Below, piece by piece: positions 124-27,178 of a DNA stretch of 34,137 nucleotides (within the stretch, counting starts at the first letter, position 1; each line of letters begins with the position of its first letter). A program made the translations under genes and the position numbers. Location: NCBI GenBank assembly GCA_009700025.1, contig WLMW01000008.1, positions 1 through 34,137 on the forward strand. The letters are read 5' to 3'. Below the pieces are notes generated by a model, which was not told the origin of the DNA, did no database searches, and worked only from the letters and a program-made list of their open reading frames with translations. The stretch is from Actinomycetota bacterium (GTDB lineage Bacteria; Actinomycetota; Actinomycetes; Nanopelagicales; Nanopelagicaceae).

Positions 124-987
124 ATGACGCGTAAATCCTGGATCCACTTTGGCATAGTCGGCTTTTTATGGGGAATTCCATACCTACTAATGAAGGTTGC
201 TGTTGCTGATATTCCCCCTCCCCTGATCGTTGCCGGTCGTACATTAATTGGTGCAGCAATATTGATTCCCATTGCTATTCGAAAAAATACTTTTAAGGAT
301 GCAATCAAAGGCATTAGATATGTTGCACCTTACGCAGTTCTTGAAATGGTTGGTCCCTGGATTCTGATCACCAATGCTGAAAAAGAGATTACTTCGGGAT
401 TAGCGGGTTTATTAGTTGCAACGGTTCCAATCTTTTCAACGATTTTCTCTTCGCTACGCGGGGATCATTCAGTTTGGCAACCTAAGCGAATCTTTGGTCT
501 CGTTGTTGGATTCGTTGGCATAGTTGCACTCGTTGGAATCGAATCAATTACAGGTAGTAGCAATCCAAAAGCAATTGCCATGGTAATTCTTGCCTCAATT
601 TTGTATGCATATGCAGTCCTGATGATTACAGCAAACTTGCCAGGTGTTGATGGAATTGCAATTAACGGCGTAGCAATGGCAATTACTTCACTGATTTATA
701 CGCCTATTGCTATTGCAATGTGGCCAACTAATCCCGTTTCAGTAAATGCAATCGCAGCGCTAATTGCCCTTGGAGTCTTTAGTACCGCAATCGCTTTTAT
801 GCTCTTCTTTATCGTTATCGTAGAAATCGGCCCGGCCAGAGGTTCTCTAACTACGTATGTAAACACTGCCGTTGCAGTTGTACTTGGAATTATTATTTTA
901 GGTGAACCTATAACTTTAGGAATTATCGTTGGTTTACCTATGGTGGTTCTAGGTTCTTACTTGGCTAGCCGAAAATCAGCGGTTTAA
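124..987 (+). CDS. EamA/DMT-family permease
   Basis: A 287-residue hydrophobic protein with about ten predicted membrane helices arranged as two EamA repeats of five. The first begins GFLWGIPYLLMKVAV, the usual EamA opening, and the last helix ends in a short basic tail (ASRKSAV). DMT permeases export or import small metabolites such as amino acids or nucleosides; the substrate cannot be inferred. The ATG follows the upstream TAA with no gap and there is no clear Shine-Dalgarno sequence, so translation probably depends on the upstream glycosyltransferase. Its TAA shares bases with the stop codon of era on the other strand (984-987). Confidence 0.85.
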   Translation: MTRKSWIHFGIVGFLWGIPYLLMKVAVADIPPPLIVAGRTLIGAAILIPIAIRKNTFKDAIKGIRYVAPYAVLEMVGPWILITNAEKEITSGLAGLLVATVPIFSTIFSSLRGDHSVWQPKRIFGLVVGFVGIVALVGIESITGSSNPKAIAMVILASILYAYAVLMITANLPGVDGIAINGVAMAITSLIYTPIAIAMWPTNPVSVNAIAALIALGVFSTAIAFMLFFIVIVEIGPARGSLTTYVNTAVAVVLGIIILGEPITLGIIVGLPMVVLGSYLASRKSAV

Positions 988-5319: not shown

Positions 5320-5973
5320 CTATTTCAGGACATCTATTTTTGGGACTAGTGCCACATGTTTAAAGGGCCAAATAACTGCAACAACTCGACCAGTAACGCG
5401 GCTTAAAGGAACAAATCCCTTATTGACATCTTCTTGGTGATATCTAGAGTCCGCACTTGCTCCGCGGTGATCTCCCATTACCCAGATTTTTCCTTTAGGT
5501 ACAGTGACATCAAAGTTCATTTCGCTAGGTTTATTGCCTGCAAAAATATAAGGCTCGGTAATTGCCTTGTCATTAACTGTTAGCAGGCCGGCCTTATCGC
5601 AACAAACGATGTGGTCTCCTGCAACACCAATAACGCGCTTAACTAAATACTGCTTTGCTGGGTTAGGCAACACACCAACGGCCACAAGCCCGGTTTTTAA
5701 CTTTGCAATATATTTATTTGAGGATGAATCTGAAATCTCCGGTAACCAACCTGCAGGATCTCGGAATACCACTACATCGCCGCGACTAATATCCCTTGAT
5801 ATAAAGGGAACTTTATTTACGGCTACACGATCTTTTATTTGTAGCGTATTTTCCATTGACCCAGAAGGGATGTAGAAAAACTGAACTAAGAAAGTTTTTA
5901 TAAGCAGGGAAACAACAAGTGCAACGACAACAAGGATTGGGAGCTCCCGTAAAAGGGAACCCTTACTGCGCAT
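5320..5973 (-). CDS. lepB: Signal peptidase I
   Basis: 217 residues. One N-terminal membrane helix (about 11-32) is followed by the S26 peptidase core: nucleophile Ser39 in PSGSM, general-base Lys112 in VKRVIGVAGD, and the late MGDHRGASADSR box. It removes signal peptides from exported proteins on the outer face of the membrane. The start is 8 nt after the rplS stop, and rplS-lepB is a common actinobacterial pair. The box reads GDHR rather than the usual GDNR, a tolerated variant. No second lepB copy is present in the window. Confidence 0.95.
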   Translation of the reverse strand: MRSKGSLLRELPILVVVALVVSLLIKTFLVQFFYIPSGSMENTLQIKDRVAVNKVPFISRDISRGDVVVFRDPAGWLPEISDSSSNKYIAKLKTGLVAVGVLPNPAKQYLVKRVIGVAGDHIVCCDKAGLLTVNDKAITEPYIFAGNKPSEMNFDVTVPKGKIWVMGDHRGASADSRYHQEDVNKGFVPLSRVTGRVVAVIWPFKHVALVPKIDVLK

Positions 5974-5981
5974 TGAGGTGA

Positions 5982-6515
5982 TTATTCGGCTGCTGGTGTT
6001 GCTTCAGCTACAGGTGCGTCAACAACTGCATCAGCTACAGGTGCGTCAACAACTGCTTCAACAACTGGTGCTTCGACTACAGCTTCTACAACTGGTGCTT
6101 CTTCTACAACTGGTGCAATAACTGCAACAGGTTCAGGTGTTGAAAGAATTCCATCGCCGTAACCTTCAATGCCATCGCGCTTTTCGCGAATCTTTGCAGC
6201 CTTACCGCGTAGATCGCGAAGGTAGTAAAGCTTGGCGCGACGTACTTCGCCTTTTTTAACTAACTCAATCTTTTCAATTACTGGAGTGTGAACTGGGAAA
6301 GTACGCTCTACGCCAACACCATATGAAACTTTACGAACTGTAAAAGTCTCGCGAACGCCATCGCCCTGACGACGCATAACGATTCCTTGGAATACCTGAA
6401 GACGGCTCTTGCTACCTTCGATAACACGTACGTGAATCTTGAGCTCATCACCAGCACGAAACTGTGGGATGTCATGGCGCAGGGATACTGCATCTACGGC
6501 GTCAAGGATGTTCAT
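5982..6515 (-). CDS. rplS: Ribosomal protein L19 (bL19) with an acidic repeat tail
   Basis: Residues 1-122 are a complete bL19, including [49 protein letters not shown] and the basic [12 protein letters not shown] end. It sits at the 30S-50S interface. A tail of about 55 residues follows, made only of Val, Ala, Pro, Glu, Asp and Thr, with a 9-residue repeat. Standard bL19 is about 115-120 residues, so the tail is an addition. The first gene of the minus-strand operon, it has AGG 7 nt before the ATG. A weak candidate promoter is TTTAAT (6539-6544) with TCTGCA 17 bp upstream. Confidence 0.93.
5994..6101 (-). repeat. Four tandem 27-bp units encoding the L19 tail
   Basis: Residues 139-174 of L19 consist of four 9-residue units: [27 protein letters not shown] and DAPVAEATP. 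The DNA repeats with the same 27-bp period (for example ggtgcgtcaacaactgc recurs). The array stays in frame and ends just before the stop codon. It probably grew by replication slippage. Confidence 0.85.
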
Positions 6516-21158: not shown

Positions 21159-23204
21159 TTAATCTAGATAATCACGCAGTACTTGGCTTCGAGATGGGTG
21201 ACGAAGCTTGGACATTGTCTTAGATTCAATCTGGCGAATACGCTCACGAGTAACTCCATAAACCTTTCCGATTTCATCCAAAGTTTTAGGTTGTCCATCT
21301 GTAAGACCAAAGCGCATCGCAACCACTCCGGCTTCACGCTCTGACAAAGTATCCAAAACTGAATGAAGTTGCTCTTGAAGCAAAGTAAATGAAACTGCAT
21401 CGGCTGGGACAACTGCCTCACTATCTTCAATGAGGTCACCAAATTCGGAGTCTCCTTCTTCACCAAGTGGTGTGAGAAGTGAGATTGGTTCACGACCATA
21501 CTTTTGAACCTCAACGACTTTTTCAGGAGTCATATCTAATTCTTTTGCTAACTCTTCTGGGGTCGGTTCGCGACCAAGATCTTGCAACATCTGTCGCTGA
21601 ACTCGAGCTAACTTATTGATGACTTCAACCATATGGACTGGAATACGAATGGTGCGAGCCTGGTCTGCCATCGCACGAGTGATGGCCTGGCGAATCCACC
21701 ATGTTGCATATGTTGAGAACTTATATCCCTTTGTGTAGTCGAACTTCTCAACTGCACGGATTAATCCCAAGTTACCTTCTTGAATGAGATCCAAGAACAA
21801 CATTCCACGACCTGTGTAACGCTTTGCAAGCGAAACAACGAGTCGAAGGTTTGCTTCGAGCAAGTGGTTCTTAGCGCGCTTGCCGTCTTCAACAAGCCAT
21901 TCCAGTTCACGTTTCAACTTCTTCTCAATCTTCTTTTCATTCTTCAACTTTGCTTCAGCAAACAAGCCGACTTCAACACGAGTTGCTAGCTCAACTTCTA
22001 GCTCTGCGTTCAGAAGTGCTACGCGACCAATCTGCTTCAAATAATCCTTTACAGGATCTGCAGTTGCACCAGCGGTCATAACTGTCTGCTCAGGTGGTAG
22101 ATACTTAATTTCACGCTGAACTACCTTCATTTTTTCAATGAAATAGTTCATGAGATCTTCAAGATTTTTGAGTGAACCAAGCGTGATTGCCTCTGCTGCG
22201 GTCTTTGCTGATTTCTCAGTAAAAGTCTTCATTTCAAATTGTTGCTGAATCTGCTTGTAAGTAAGCGCCTTTGCTTCCGCCTCTGCGATACCGTATCGAA
22301 TAGGTGTTGCAACGTTGTTTATCTTTCCGTTAATCGCTTCAATTACGATGTTAACATTTCTCAAATCTTTCTTTAGCTTTTCACGCTCGTTCTTATCCTC
22401 TTCTTCATCCTCAGCTTCTGAGTCAGCCAAAGTAAATGATCCCTTAGCTTTGCTTGATTCGTCTGACAATGTAACAACGCGAACTTTGTCTTCTGCCTCA
22501 GCATCGACTAATTCAACGGCCTCGGCAATAAGGGTTTCAACATCTTCTAGTTCAACCTCTTCAAGCTCGACCTCTTCGCCATCAATGCTGACAACGGCTG
22601 GCTTACTTGGCTTAACCTCTGCTTTCACAGCTGCTGGTTTTGGTGCAATTAAGTCATACTCAGCTTTTTTCAAAGTACGACTAGGAGATCCAAGACCGGC
22701 TTTGCGGAGCTTTTCAATGATTATTGGGAGCTCAATTGCCAGAGCACGAGCCTCATCAACTAAATCTTTGTTAGCTTTCTTGGGAATTCGGTTAACGGAT
22801 GTAACTCCGCGAGCATTGAGTTCTGCAAGAACGTCATCATTGCGTTTGAATGCATTCTTTGCATCAACAATTGCTTGAACATCTTTTGCGGTTAATTCCT
22901 TTTTCAACTCAATCTTCGTGGGTTTCGCTACCGCTTTAACTGGCGCCGCTTTTTTCGCTACGGTTTTTTTCGCTGGCGCCGCTTTCTTTACTGGCGCTGC
23001 TTTTTTCGCTACGGTTTTTTTCGCTGGCGCTGCTTTCTTTACTGGCGCCGCTTTTTTCGCTACGGCTTTTTTCGCTGGCGCCGCTTTCTTTGCTACGGTT
23101 TTCTTAACAACCGCTTTTTTCGCAACAGCTTTCTTTGCGGGTGCAGCTTTTTTCGCAACGGTCTTCTTCATAACCTTATTTTTGAGCGCACTAAATACAG
23201 CCAC
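21159..23204 (-). CDS. rpoD: Principal sigma-70 factor (HrdB/SigA type) with Lys/Ala repeat N-terminus
   Basis: 681 residues. Regions 1.2-4.2 (from about 375) nearly match Streptomyces Hrd[58 protein letters not shown], and [20 protein letters not shown] recognising the -35. Upstream are residues 12-95, rich in KKAAPAKK repeats; an unassigned helical stretch (96-195); an acidic patch (205-275); and an unfamiliar insert (about 276-376). The start is a GTG with AAAGGA upstream. A TATAAT promoter with an embedded DnaA box precedes it. It should recognise the TANNNT promoters in the window. Confidence 0.95.
22938..23090 (-). repeat. Three tandem 51-bp units in the sigma-factor 5' region
   Basis: Residues 39-89 of the sigma factor are three copies of a 17-residue unit, [17 protein letters not shown]; the upstream copy has Ala for Thr. 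The DNA keeps the same 51-bp period, with 'acgg' at 22960, 23011 and 23062. Shorter KK-x-A elements extend the low-complexity block to about residues 12-95 (22920-23171). Confidence 0.9.
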
Positions 23205-23303: not shown

Positions 23304-24389
23304 TTAGCCAAGGGCGAGCGCGGATCTGATGACACTGCCCACTGATTCGACCTCTACAAGGAAGCCATCGTGGCCAAATGGTGATGAAATCGTGACCAAC
23401 GGCTGGGCGTGAGGGGTAAACTCGACGATTTCTGACTGAAGTCTGACTGGAAACAGGCGGTCACTATCAATTGAGACAGCTACTACTGGAACATTGATGC
23501 TCGATAGAGCTGCGGCGACTCCCCCGCGATCTCTGCCAATGTCATGTGAAATCATTGCTTCGGTGAGCGCGATGTAGGTATTGGCGTCAAAACGCTTGGC
23601 TAACTTGTCTGCCTGGTGGTCTAAATAGGACTCAACAGCATACCGACCTGTGTCATCCCCCTGAAGTTCGCGTCCAAAGCGAATATCCATCTCCGCCTCA
23701 GTTCGATAAGTCAGATGCGCGATACGCCGAGCTATTCCCATGCCAGTGATAGGTCCCAGCTCTTGCTCGTAATAGTCACCTTCATAGAAATGAGGATCGG
23801 TTTTTATCGCTCGAAGTTCGATAGACCATGTTCCAATTTGATCACCCGTTGCAACGGCCGAAGATCCGATAGTGCAGATGGCTCCAACGCGATGCGGCAA
23901 CTGCACTGCCCATTCGAGCGAACGCATTCCGCCTAGAGATGGACCAACCGCCAATGTGTACTTAGTAATTCCTAGCGCATCGCTGAAAGCAACTTCGGCG
24001 GCGACCATGTCTCGAATCGTGACAGAGGGAAAACGTGAACCGTAACGACGGCCATCAGGTGCAATCGATGAGGGGCCAGTACTTCCCTGACAGCCCCCAA
24101 TGACGTTTGGACATACGATGAAATATTTATCACTATCAAATGGCATGCCTGGTCCAACCATTGATGGCCACCAGCCCGGCACATCTGACCAACCAGTCAT
24201 TGCATGGTTAACTAAAATCGCATTGTCTTTTTCTTTATTAAGAACACCCCAACTTTGATAAGCAATCGTGATGTTCTCTAATGTCTCACCATTTTCAAGA
24301 GTGAGGTCACCAATATTTACAAAAAGGCGATCACCGGGTGCATGGGTTTCAAGCCATGCCCCGGTAATCGAAGCCTTTATGTCTGCCAT
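23304..24389 (-). CDS. metX: Homoserine O-acyltransferase MetX
   Basis: 361 residues of the alpha/beta-hydrolase MetX family. The nucleophile is Ser151 in GPSLGGMRSLEW, with the oxyanion region NHAMTGWSDV and the late catalytic pair Asp (about 310, in DSDRLFP) and His (about 340, in FGHDGF). It activates homoserine for methionine synthesis. O-acetylhomoserine is the likely product because the partner is MetY, but the nucleophile elbow reads GPSLGG rather than GGSMGG, so succinyl transfer is not excluded. The ATG shares one base with the metY stop (TAATG), indicating coupling. Confidence 0.9.
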   Translation of the reverse strand: MADIKASITGAWLETHAPGDRLFVNIGDLTLENGETLENITIAYQSWGVLNKEKDNAILVNHAMTGWSDVPGWWPSMVGPGMPFDSDKYFIVCPNVIGGCQGSTGPSSIAPDGRRYGSRFPSVTIRDMVAAEVAFSDALGITKYTLAVGPSLGGMRSLEWAVQLPHRVGAICTIGSSAVATGDQIGTWSIELRAIKTDPHFYEGDYYEQELGPITGMGIARRIAHLTYRTEAEMDIRFGRELQGDDTGRYAVESYLDHQADKLAKRFDANTYIALTEAMISHDIGRDRGGVAAALSSINVPVVAVSIDSDRLFPVRLQSEIVEFTPHAQPLVTISSPFGHDGFLVEVESVGSVIRSALALG

Positions 24390-25711
24390 TACTTAGCCGC
24401 AGCAAACCCGTCAATGAGATCTGCTTTGATATCTGCAAAGTCTTCAAGACCGACAGACAAACGAATCAGACCTGGAGTAACACCTGCATTTAACAACTCA
24501 TCGGCCGAAAGCTGCGAATGTGTCGTAGATGCTGGATGAATCACGAGCGAACGCACGTCACCGATGTTGGCAACGTGTGAATGCAAAGTTAAAGCTTCTA
24601 CGAACTTTTTACCGGCCTCGATGCCGCCCTTGATTTCAAAGGATAAAACCGAGCCAGAGCCTTTAGGCGCGTACTTAATGGCAAGTGCGTTATATGGTGA
24701 ATTAGCCAGTGATGAATAGTTAACTTTCTCCACCTGTGGGTGCTCAGCAAGCCATGTTGCAACGGCCTTAGCATTTTCTAAGTGTTGCTTCATGCGAAGC
24801 GTTAATGTCTCTAGACCTTGCGCAACTAACCAAGCGTTAAATGGACTCACGGCAGCGCCTATATCGCGCAGCAATGTCAAGCGAATTTTAAAGATGTAAG
24901 CCAGATTTGCACCAAATGCACTTCCGACTCCAAGTGCCTGTGCATAGACCAAGCCATGATAAGAAGGATCAGGAGTATTAAAACTTTTGAATTTTTCTGG
25001 GTACTGCGCATAGTCAAAATTACCTGAATCCACAATGGCACCAACAACAGCGTTTCCATGTCCACCTAAGAATTTAGTTGCTGAGTGAACTACAACATCT
25101 GCACCGAATTCAATTGGCTTAATAACATAAGGGGTGGCAACTGTGTTATCGACAATCAAAGGAACATGGCTTTCATGTGCAACCTTTGCAACTGCTGCAA
25201 TATCTAAGATGTCGTTGTTTGGATTTGAAATCGTCTCACCAAAGAATGCTTTAGTATTTGGTCGAACTGCTTTGCGCCATTCCTCAGGATCATTGGGATT
25301 ATCAACGAATGTTACTTCGACGCCAAAAGTTGGCAACGTGTAATGGAACAAGTTGTATGTTCCGCCATAGAGATACTTGGATGACACTATGTGATCTCCA
25401 GCAGTTGCAACTGCAAGAACTGCAAAAGTTGTTGCGGCCGAACCAGAAGCGAGTAGAAGAGCTGCAACACCACCTTCAAGAGATGCAATTCGCTTTTCAA
25501 CTACGTCCTGCGTCGGATTCATAATGCGGGTATAAATGTTTCCAAGCTCTGCTAATCCAAATAAATCAGCGGCATGTTTAGTGTCGCGGAATTGATATGC
25601 AGTTGTCTGATAAAGCGGAAGTGCGCGAGCGCCAGTTGTTGGATCTGCTACTTGCCCTGCATGAATCTGACGGGTTTCAAAACCCGCTTCGTCAAAAGAA
25701 AACGTTGACAT
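24389..25711 (-). CDS. metY: O-acetylhomoserine sulfhydrylase MetY
   Basis: 440 residues of the Cys/Met PLP-dependent family. Lys213 in HSATKFLGGHG is the cofactor lysine; TRIMNPTQDVVEKRIASLEGG and ASGSAATTFA are typical blocks, and VDNTVATPY holds the PLP aspartate. The length (about 430-440) and sequence favour MetY, which uses sulfide directly, over MetB/MetZ (about 380-400). The ATG has GGGAGGA about 9 nt upstream, partly within a hairpin. The gene is preceded by a SAM-IV riboswitch, so metY-metX should be shut off when S-adenosylmethionine is abundant. Confidence 0.93.
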   Translation of the reverse strand: MSTFSFDEAGFETRQIHAGQVADPTTGARALPLYQTTAYQFRDTKHAADLFGLAELGNIYTRIMNPTQDVVEKRIASLEGGVAALLLASGSAATTFAVLAVATAGDHIVSSKYLYGGTYNLFHYTLPTFGVEVTFVDNPNDPEEWRKAVRPNTKAFFGETISNPNNDILDIAAVAKVAHESHVPLIVDNTVATPYVIKPIEFGADVVVHSATKFLGGHGNAVVGAIVDSGNFDYAQYPEKFKSFNTPDPSYHGLVYAQALGVGSAFGANLAYIFKIRLTLLRDIGAAVSPFNAWLVAQGLETLTLRMKQHLENAKAVATWLAEHPQVEKVNYSSLANSPYNALAIKYAPKGSGSVLSFEIKGGIEAGKKFVEALTLHSHVANIGDVRSLVIHPASTTHSQLSADELLNAGVTPGLIRLSVGLEDFADIKADLIDGFAAAK

Positions 25712-25723
25712 GTGCTGTATTCC

Positions 25724-25737
25724 TCCCAGTTATGGGA
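25724..25737 (-). promoter_or_regulatory. Hairpin over the metY Shine-Dalgarno (probable expression platform)
   Basis: In the mRNA, TCCCA-TAAC-TGGGA forms a 5-bp stem whose 3' arm contains the first part of the Shine-Dalgarno GGGAGGA. Pairing would hide the ribosome binding site. No U-tract follows, which fits translational rather than transcriptional control. Confidence 0.5.
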
Positions 25738-25784
25738 CCACTCATGTACCTATGCCGACGCTGGCACTACTTATACATTCGAGT

Positions 25785-25899
25785 GATCCACGCTTATCGA
25801 TGGCGTTGTTGCTATCGATCTGGTCTTCACCCGGAGCACCCCACCGTGGTGGAGGGTTGCCGTCTAGTAAGCCGGGGCTAAACACTAGAACTCATGACC
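25785..25899 (-). ncRNA. SAM-IV riboswitch aptamer
   Basis: The transcribed strand carries the SAM-IV core in order: GGTCATGAG (25899-25891), AGCCCCGGCTTACTAGACGG, CAACCCTCCACCACGGTGG, then GGTGCTCCGGGTGAAGACC. The 5' GGTC pairs with the GACC at 25822-25825 (P1). A second helical region, GATCGATAGC...ATCGATAAGC...GGATC, follows to 25785, as in the mycobacterial SAM-IV RNA of known structure. It binds S-adenosylmethionine and sits upstream of metY-metX, the expected target. The SAM-I type is less likely because of the CCCCGG...CCGG core and the helices outside P1. Confidence 0.9.
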
Positions 25900-25906
25900 T
25901 GGCTAA

Positions 25907-25935
25907 ACCCTAACAGAGAGAAAGCCTTAGTTAAA
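25907..25935 (-). promoter_or_regulatory. Promoter TTTAAC-17 bp-TAGGGT of the metY riboswitch
   Basis: TTTAAC (25930-25935) and TAGGGT (25907-25912) are 17 bp apart on the minus strand. The predicted start is near 25900, so the transcript would begin at the first base of the aptamer. The -35 overlaps the stop region of the upstream DUF4192-like gene. Confidence 0.6.
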
Positions 25936-26472
25936 AATCCCGGCAGTAACTTTTGGGTGCAGCTCTGTGCGCATAGCGGCAAAGGCAGTGGCGGGCCAGC
26001 CAGATCCAAAGACCCGGCGCAAAAGAATCGTGAGTGAATAGTTTGGTTGATCAATGGTTGCTCGATCGAGTGCTTGGTATGCCAGCGAAACATTTCCCTG
26101 CTCATAAGCCAAAGTTGCAAAGAGGCAGGCTACTGGAGCGACAAAGCCTTCAGGTGCTACTTGGAGTAGGTATCTCCACATCCCCCAATACGTTTGAAAG
26201 CTGGTGACGCTATGTGAACCCAATGCAAAGTCACGAACTTGGATATCACTCAAGCGACCTATCACTTTTGCGATTTGTTCGCGTTTACTGAATTCACCAA
26301 ACTCTTGAAACTCCACCGCTAAATCTATGACTGCCGTTGCGCCATCGCGTTGAGAATCATTGAGGTTCGGCGATTCTTCGGGCACTGCAAAGCTGGAAAC
26401 CAACGTAATGAAACTATCCTCACCTGCCAATTCTGTAGAAGTTACTGAGTCTGTGTTGTTTTCAGTTGTCAT
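25927..26472 (-). CDS. DUF4192-like protein, C-terminal half only
   Basis: 181 residues from the ATG at 26472. The second half (YLLQVAPEGFVAPVACLFAT through LAYEQGNVSLAYQALDRA and QPNYSLTILLRRVF) resembles the C-terminal part of actinobacterial DUF4192 proteins, which are usually about twice as long. The first 45 residues are polar and Ser/Thr/Glu-rich. Function is unknown. The frame is open to 26541, but 26472 is preferred because it lies just past the stop of the preceding gene. No remnant of the missing N-terminal half is visible upstream, so this is a short form rather than a fresh frameshift. Confidence 0.65.
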   Translation of the reverse strand: MTTENNTDSVTSTELAGEDSFITLVSSFAVPEESPNLNDSQRDGATAVIDLAVEFQEFGEFSKREQIAKVIGRLSDIQVRDFALGSHSVTSFQTYWGMWRYLLQVAPEGFVAPVACLFATLAYEQGNVSLAYQALDRATIDQPNYSLTILLRRVFGSGWPATAFAAMRTELHPKVTAGIFN

Positions 26473-26479
26473 AGATTGC

Positions 26480-27178
26480 TCATTTCGTAAAGTGAGTAGG
26501 GGCTGATACAACAGTGACCGTTGCCACCGAGGTCTTAACAATCTGTCCAGTTATTGCGCGCACTGCTCCGTTATGGGTAAAACTTCCATTCCATGTTGTC
26601 AAAAGAACTACTGCATAAGTTCCTGGTTTCCTATAAGTGTGAGTTATCACTTGATGCGGATATGGCGCTCCGATATTGGTTGTCGCCCAGACTGAGCCGT
26701 CACCAAATGACCAGATGAAACCTGGGCGCAGTCCCACATCTACAATCTCTCCAATAATGTTTACTCGACTTTGAAATATTTGTGGAACATCTACCCAGAA
26801 AATAACTGGAACCTGTACTAGCGGTTCAAGGGCTGGTTGAAAAGCAATCCCTCCCGTGGGAACTAACTTTGTTAAGCGATCACTGAGATTGGCCGTTTGG
26901 GTCGCGGTTTTTGGCTTAACTATCCGTGGCTTATACGTGCGTTTTACATAGGGATGCGGACTCGGCGATGGTTTAGGTGGAAACCACAATGTGGCGGTCG
27001 GCGATGGCTTAGGTCGCGGGGGTTTCTTCACTTGTGAAGTTCCGGGTTTCTGAGCTTCAATAATAATTTGGTTATCTTGGGTATAAACATCCACGCACAC
27101 GGGCAAGGCACAAACGGCAATTGCAGATGTGGGGAGTGAAAAAAGCATAATAAAACTGATAATGAGTGAGCGTTTCAT
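26480..27178 (-). CDS. Secreted or anchored PKD-domain protein
   Basis: 232 residues. Residues 1-22 (MKRSLIISFIMLFSLPTSAI) form a signal peptide, with cleavage probably after SAIA. A Pro/Lys-rich segment (PPRPKPSPTATLWFPPKPSP) of wall-spanning character follows. The C-terminal half contains a PKD-type Ig-like fold: FIWSFGDGSVW, then HTYRKPGTYAVVLLTTW. Such domains usually mediate extracellular protein or carbohydrate binding. The start at 27178 rather than 27202 is set by TATCGT 7 nt upstream (leaderless). It probably forms an operon with the DUF4192-like gene 7 bp downstream. Confidence 0.75.
   Translation of the reverse strand: MKRSLIISFIMLFSLPTSAIAVCALPVCVDVYTQDNQIIIEAQKPGTSQVKKPPRPKPSPTATLWFPPKPSPSPHPYVKRTYKPRIVKPKTATQTANLSDRLTKLVPTGGIAFQPALEPLVQVPVIFWVDVPQIFQSRVNIIGEIVDVGLRPGFIWSFGDGSVWATTNIGAPYPHQVITHTYRKPGTYAVVLLTTWNGSFTHNGAVRAITGQIVKTSVATVTVVSAPTHFTK

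Follow-up and report, generated by a model that had tools for sequence, protein, structure and literature searches.

The metY gene of this freshwater actinobacterium is preceded by a SAM-IV riboswitch that likely represses translation of metY, and probably that of metX, at high SAM through strand exchange at pseudoknot PK-2. The switch was studied in a stretch of 34,137 nt that makes up positions 1 to 34,137 of contig WLMW01000008.1 (the window), where the presence of a SAM-IV aptamer and a Shine-Dalgarno (SD) hairpin ahead of metY was confirmed. The genes and leader elements are as follows.

25785..25899, minus strand: SAM-IV aptamer (RF00634, 110.4 bits)
25845..25849, minus strand: PK-2 5′ strand CCACG, in the P3 loop (from pairing across 180 leaders)
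25788..25792, minus strand: PK-2 3′ strand CGUGG, its last GG (25789-25788) common to the anti-sequestor
25781..25789, minus strand: anti-sequestor 5′ strand GGAUCACUC (97.2% of cells paired)
25753..25766, minus strand: apical linker hairpin UGCC-AGCGUC-GGCA (from folding and alignment)
25735..25743, minus strand: anti-sequestor 3′ strand GAGUGGUCC, its CC (25736-25735) common to the SD hairpin
25724..25737, minus strand: SD sequestor hairpin UCCCA-UAAC-UGGGA, its four inner pairs present when PK-2 is held in the model
25722..25727, minus strand: Shine-Dalgarno GGGAGG, 10 nt ahead of the metY ATG
24389..25711, minus strand: metY, O-acetylhomoserine sulfhydrylase (NF005872, 725.8 bits, over cut-off)
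23304..24389, minus strand: metX, homoserine O-acetyltransferase (NF001209, 416.3 bits, over cut-off)

A covariance search matched RF00634 (SAM-IV) to 25785-25899 on the minus strand over the full length of the model (positions 1-116); the score was 110.4 bits, the cut-off being 38 (E 9.3e-20). No other Rfam family exceeded its gathering score anywhere in the window, which bears out the class named in the initial annotation. PK-2, which joins the P3 loop to the 3′ end, has all five pairs here (CCACG:CGUGG). Among the 180 of 210 leaders in which a search pattern located the P3 loop, five pairs are present in 113, four in 64 and three in 3; 178 of the 180 have G-C, A-U or G-U as their middle pair. 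Both strands of PK-1 (P2b loop with the strand after P3), CCCGG and CCGGG, can be seen by eye; only column 25 of its columns varies in 32 genus leaders. The aptamer ends in the tail AAG-CGUGG-AUCACUC. In its full-length match, both pseudoknot strand pairs, its actinobacterial host and its position before metY it is like known SAM-IV RNAs, and we see no difference from them: the class is already known, the aptamer is an ordinary member, and to judge by its sequence it presumably binds SAM. The expression platform falls outside the Rfam model. In Mycobacterium avium, too, a SAM-IV element is reported in the 5′ UTR of an O-acetylhomoserine sulfhydrylase gene, according to a passage in PMC3774663.

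The metY ATG (25711) lies 73 nt beyond the aptamer end, and metX comes next. Because the metX start and the metY stop overlap as TAATG, metX is probably translationally coupled to metY. Just downstream of metX, an ORF at 21159-23204 (minus strand) was read by eye as a sigma-70-family factor with a long N-terminal AKKAAPAKK-type repeat. The SD hairpin proposed initially, TCCCA-TAAC-TGGGA overlapping the metY SD, is indeed present at 25737-25724 over GGGAGG, and it is 98.4% paired in the genus leaders, with CCCA/UGGG kept in 29 of 32. Since the hairpin is nearly invariant, its covariation support comes from one sequence, the compensated leader L038, where UUCG stands opposite UGGA. In two metX leaders that carry this type of aptamer (L015 and L016) the hairpin was not recognisable by eye. 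The folding energy of the window leader taken as a single sequence did not by itself reveal the platform (z -1.53, with 15 of 200 shuffles folding equally well).

While the SD hairpin of the initially proposed platform stood, the element that links it to the aptamer had not been given; such an element exists and covaries. In the aptamer tail, formed by the PK-2 strand CGUGG and its continuation, GGAUCACUC can pair with GAGUGGUCC, located just 5′ of the SD hairpin. This helix, the anti-sequestor, has GG in common with PK-2 and CC in common with the SD hairpin, where they are the first two C. In the alignment used for helix covariation (A2, 32 genus leaders), the anti-sequestor had a covariation of 0.367 versus 0.155 when shuffled, 97.2% versus 85.0% paired cells, and 39 versus 15.3 cells changed on both sides; versions slid out of register scored at most 0.069. 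The compensation sits in columns 10/64, 14/60 and 15/59. Thus tails GGAUC and GGAUU match arms GGUCC or GAUCC, tails GGAAC and GGAAU match GUUCC, and the outer tail letters ACUC, ACUU and ACCU occur mostly with GAGU, AAGU and AGGU, respectively. A nucleotide common to the anti-sequestor and the SD helix was found in 33 of 36 genus metY leaders and 42 of 47 metY leaders from the rest of the family, counts that stand without a shuffled control. Both helices are present with no common nucleotide in five of these 47 (L142, L193, L196, L202 and L204) and, in another family, in L169, L176 and L185. The anti-sequestor is only 4 bp long in 11 of the 47.

A local hairpin made from the PK-2 strand, GUGGAA...UUCCAC, is found in 18 of the 33 genus leaders, L022 and L030 among them; all 18 are of the GGAA-tail type, and the window lacks it. 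Its loop contains the anti-sequestor toehold, and it is possibly a folding intermediate; we kept it out of the mechanism because its stem is invariant and lends no covariation support.

Searches for RF00634 gave hits in 117 of 135 genomes of the genus. A sample from the order had it in 120 of 121 genomes, all belonging to the own family, and a sample across the phylum in 33 of 296, counting the own genome; the near named relatives include Candidatus Planktophila records. The genus leaders (29 new loci, 80 taken by region, and L001 and L002) were mostly chosen by rank among the matches listed and leave out most matches with a shorter aptamer of about 105 nt, while the family and phylum sets represent the better-scoring part of their matches. 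Ten of 220 leaders (L015, L038, L159, L165, L174, L175, L179, L183, L209 and L213) were left out as having no start with an SD by rule, and L247 as yielding no aptamer. Four of the ten (L038, L209, L175 and L183) are relay-like by eye, two of them being metX leaders, so their inclusion would slightly weaken the sorting of metX and metY leaders described below.

A model of the platform letters (R1) matched 35 of 296 family genomes, all in the own genus (1 of 17 genera). Despite this result, a design confined to the genus was rejected, as relatives maintain the pairing using different letters. Examples from other genera are GGGUAUC:GAUACCC, GGGUCUG:CAGGCCC, GGAUCG:CGAUCC, GGGUCA:UGACCC and GGGUAA:UUACCC, which precede a C-rich stretch opposite the SD, and other families show GGGUCCG with CGGGCCC or CGGACCC. 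Dinucleotide shuffling of the linkers gave p ≤ 0.05 for 25 of 36 genus metY leaders and for 13 of 47 other family metY leaders, with p > 0.5 for 15 of the 47. This stricter comparison is the less favourable one; it discriminates poorly in other genera because C-rich linkers pair easily with GGG, and a tail-swap test was therefore added, in which each leader received the tail of another leader and the pairing was rescored (200 permutations per set; 117 eligible leaders, 103 after removal of duplicates). Own tails scored above those of others in genus metY leaders (18.37 versus 9.59, n = 30, 0/200 permutations), metY leaders of other genera (12.96 versus 10.41, n = 45, 0/200), leaders of other families (18.55 versus 11.77, n = 11, 0/200) and family leaders before other genes (11.83 versus 9.26, n = 12, 4/200); relatedness among the leaders of a set means that these permutation counts should not be read as probabilities. 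The tails of L148, L154 and L158 were wrongly placed in this test, which counts against the hypothesis, and were mended for the count of common nucleotides. The genus set before other genes, with fewer than four leaders left, gave no line. We conclude that the platform goes beyond chance by covariation and tail-swap, as the aptamer does by its E-value.

Nine genus leaders (L020, L032, L037, L042, L049, L053-L055 and L062) precede a gene other than metY or metX. Their tail is GGGUC; they also have a long linker hairpin, and GAUCCCC precedes UUAGGAGAUU. This group resembles the relay described above, placed at a further gene; none of the nine was significant against linker shuffles (0/9).

The covarying coupling element makes the expected change in SD accessibility concrete, with a median opening between PK-2 held and PK-2 free of 2.46 log10 units in models of 30 genus leaders versus 0.18 in linker-shuffled controls (30 of 32 eligible leaders; L034 and L102 were skipped). 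In the minimum-energy fold of the window leader, withholding the PK-2 nucleotides gives the SD hairpin and freeing them gives the anti-sequestor; with P1 held, the probability of an open SD is 0.0016 and 0.781, respectively. The energy model contains no pseudoknots, so that PK-2 itself is not formed, and its absolute values vary with the 3′ end and with P1 forcing: for the window leader, the free-state openness is 0.78 if P1 is forced and the RNA is truncated after the ATG, 0.23 if it extends 15 nt further, and 0.023 if P1 is left unforced. Opening exceeded 10-fold in 29 of 30 leaders, L006 falling below, versus 45 of 300 shuffled-linker controls. In 23 of the 30 the difference was larger than in each of the ten controls shuffled from the same leader; in 7 it was not. 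A separate fold run with 31 leaders gave no loss of SD openness for L034 (ratio 0.7), and many relatives have a low modelled openness in both states. By computation, the translational reading put forward initially holds up.

We envisage the following exchange. With SAM bound, the aptamer would be stabilised and its tail CGUGG kept in PK-2 with CCACG of the P3 loop; the platform CC, left partnerless, would then pair with the SD in UCCCA-UAAC-UGGGA, turning metY off. In SAM-free RNA, the right arm GAGUGGUCC would invade from the toehold AUCACUC:GAGUGGU and pull the tail GG from PK-2 and the CC from the SD hairpin, leaving the SD open and the gene on. The change would be a small one: the tail GG would pick between two CC partners and the platform CC between two GG partners. 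Both the direction of regulation and the occurrence of strand exchange in the cell are predictions of this model. Passages of the cryo-EM study of SAM-IV (PMC6890682) describe an apo structure that already has five helices and two pseudoknots and that SAM does not change significantly. The isolated aptamer thus forms PK-2 without SAM, which counts against PK-2 needing the ligand, so switching has to depend on kinetics or on how stable the competing pairings are relative to each other; the structure fits a role of SAM in hardening PK-2 against a competitor outside the construct.

The promoter elements upstream of the aptamer are:

25929..25934, minus strand: -35 element TTAACT (TTGACT-like in relatives)
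25907..25915, minus strand: extended -10 element TGTTAGGGT (TG[TC]TAnnnT in 32/32 relay-type genus leaders)

The promoter was initially given as TTTAAC-17-TAGGGT. These letters are present and denote the same site as TTAACT-16-TAGGGT, which has TG ahead of its -10, lies with its end 7 nt from the aptamer, and shares the final base of its -35 with the first base of the stop codon of an upstream ORF (25927-26541). The distance from TG[TC]TAnnnT to the aptamer is 7 nt in 27 and 8 nt in 5 of the 32 relay-type genus leaders, window included. TTGACT-like -35 elements stand at spacers of 15-17 in the genus leaders (weakest match 3/6) when the best-scoring spacer between 15 and 19 is chosen. A generic promoter scanner called no promoter-like sites, this one included. 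Because the conserved promoter ends 7-8 nt before the aptamer, transcription probably starts at G25899 or one base before, close to the position about one base ahead of the aptamer suggested at the outset. From the aptamer start to the base before the ATG (25899 to 25712) the leader measures 188 nt, or 189 nt if it starts at A25900, in agreement with the compact leader of about 190 nt described earlier.

The distance from PK-2 to the SD separates leaders by gene. All measurable metY leaders of the family have a long linker of 20-90 nt (36/36 in the genus, 47/47 elsewhere in the family), whereas the SD of metX leaders follows PK-2 by no more than 6 nt or falls within its strand (55 of 57 in the genus, 7 of 8 elsewhere in the family). 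The metX exceptions are L016 and L034, genus leaders with a longer leader before metX, and L160, whose start was probably misassigned. Beyond the family the separation is less strict: nine metY leaders comprise one direct, one short, five with a long linker and two with an even longer one. Among direct metX leaders the most frequent form is AAGUGCGUGAAGGA (43 of 64), in which the SD starts 2 nt past the PK-2 positions, and in AAGCGCGGAGG, found in four direct metX leaders, it starts within the PK-2 strand. From this anatomy we infer that metX leaders are direct-occlusion switches. We are somewhat inclined to see the actinobacterial PK-2 3′ strand as a general SAM-IV output port with two interchangeable designs sorted by gene: at metX the SD would abut or form part of the strand, and at metY a GG/CC exchange would connect the strand to an SD hairpin tens of nt away. 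If true, this would explain why the isolated aptamer looks alike with and without SAM, the competitor being outside the imaged construct.

Two further arrangements were seen. In eleven leaders of one family (f3: L165-L168, L171, L172, L174, L178, L182, L186 and L187) a tiny GTG-start ORF follows an SD just past the aptamer, reading M-S-K-R-M-R-stop in 8, M-N-Q-R-M-R in 2 and M-S-Q-R-M-R in 1, so in these leaders a leader peptide, and not the enzyme gene directly, may be the target of the switch. The assembly of the window holds a second, divergent SAM-IV (57.5 bits) at 484-599 (minus strand) of an 8.2-kb contig (L332, G000:C47). Its tail is AAGAGCCGGAGGAAAAUUAAUG, its SD apparently lies in the PK-2 strand, and it precedes a 68-codon ORF (ATG at 475 down to 269). 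With a tRNA (6404-6476) beside a tyrosine-integrase-like ORF (5395-6348) and a Dam-methylase-like ORF (812-1693), both named by eye, the setting suggests a riboswitch on an integrated island.

Strand exchange has to be weighed against other readings of the leader. The SD hairpin alone might be a fixed, SAM-independent damper of metY, with the aptamer acting otherwise or not at all; its near invariance and short stem would suit that role, but the leader also has a covarying long-range helix with nucleotides common to PK-2 and the SD hairpin, and this helix recurs in other genera and families, which makes a mere damper improbable. Alternatively, the folded aptamer might block the ribosome directly, the linker helix merely bringing the SD near. 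With the SD against or inside PK-2 in 62 of 65 measured family metX leaders (at most 6 nt after it or within its strand), the aptamer is apparently used in this way elsewhere. In the window leader, however, the SD core starts 61 nt after PK-2, and the measured family metY leaders are all of the long-linker kind (83/83), so that we give direct occlusion at metY very little credence.

Finally, SAM might act on transcription, ending it by an intrinsic or Rho-dependent route within the leader or the first part of metY, either as an effect secondary to translational control or in its place. A passage in PMC8269248 mentions a premature transcript with a predicted SAM-IV in Streptomyces clavuligerus, and a Rho effect following blocked translation is plausible. 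Yet there are 0 terminator-like sites in 25600-26100, with no stem and U-tract before the gene, and the covarying elements act on the SD. For want of such a site attenuation was rejected, as anticipated by the initial annotation, which had called it unlikely on account of the missing U-tract, and we regard SAM-dependent termination in the broader sense as unlikely. Strand exchange at PK-2 thus remains the reading we prefer.

Among the titles and abstract openings listed by the literature searches, none describes this SAM-IV platform, and the passages considered here do not say how the SAM-IV aptamer reaches its gene. As set out in passages of a review of riboswitches (PMC10907184), direct-occlusion switches (group 1) comprise SAM-II/V, SAM-III, SAM-SAH and some preQ1 riboswitches. 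The metX relatives are like these, with the SD against or within the PK-2 strand; the window metY leader is unlike them, as its SD is neither inside nor against the aptamer, the core being 61 nt away. It resembles instead the strand-exchange translational riboswitches (group 3 of the same passages), in which the SD is exposed or hidden by a switching strand that can belong either to the aptamer or to an alternative helix: the alternative helix of the window leader has nucleotides in common with the aptamer and covaries. In that group the switching strand is described as lying most commonly in the first helix, whereas in the window it is the pseudoknot 3′ strand, with two of five pairs contested. 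Seen this way, metX and metY, two genes of a single pathway, would offer a natural comparison between direct occlusion and strand exchange, since both output designs are read from one aptamer and the sensor stays constant.
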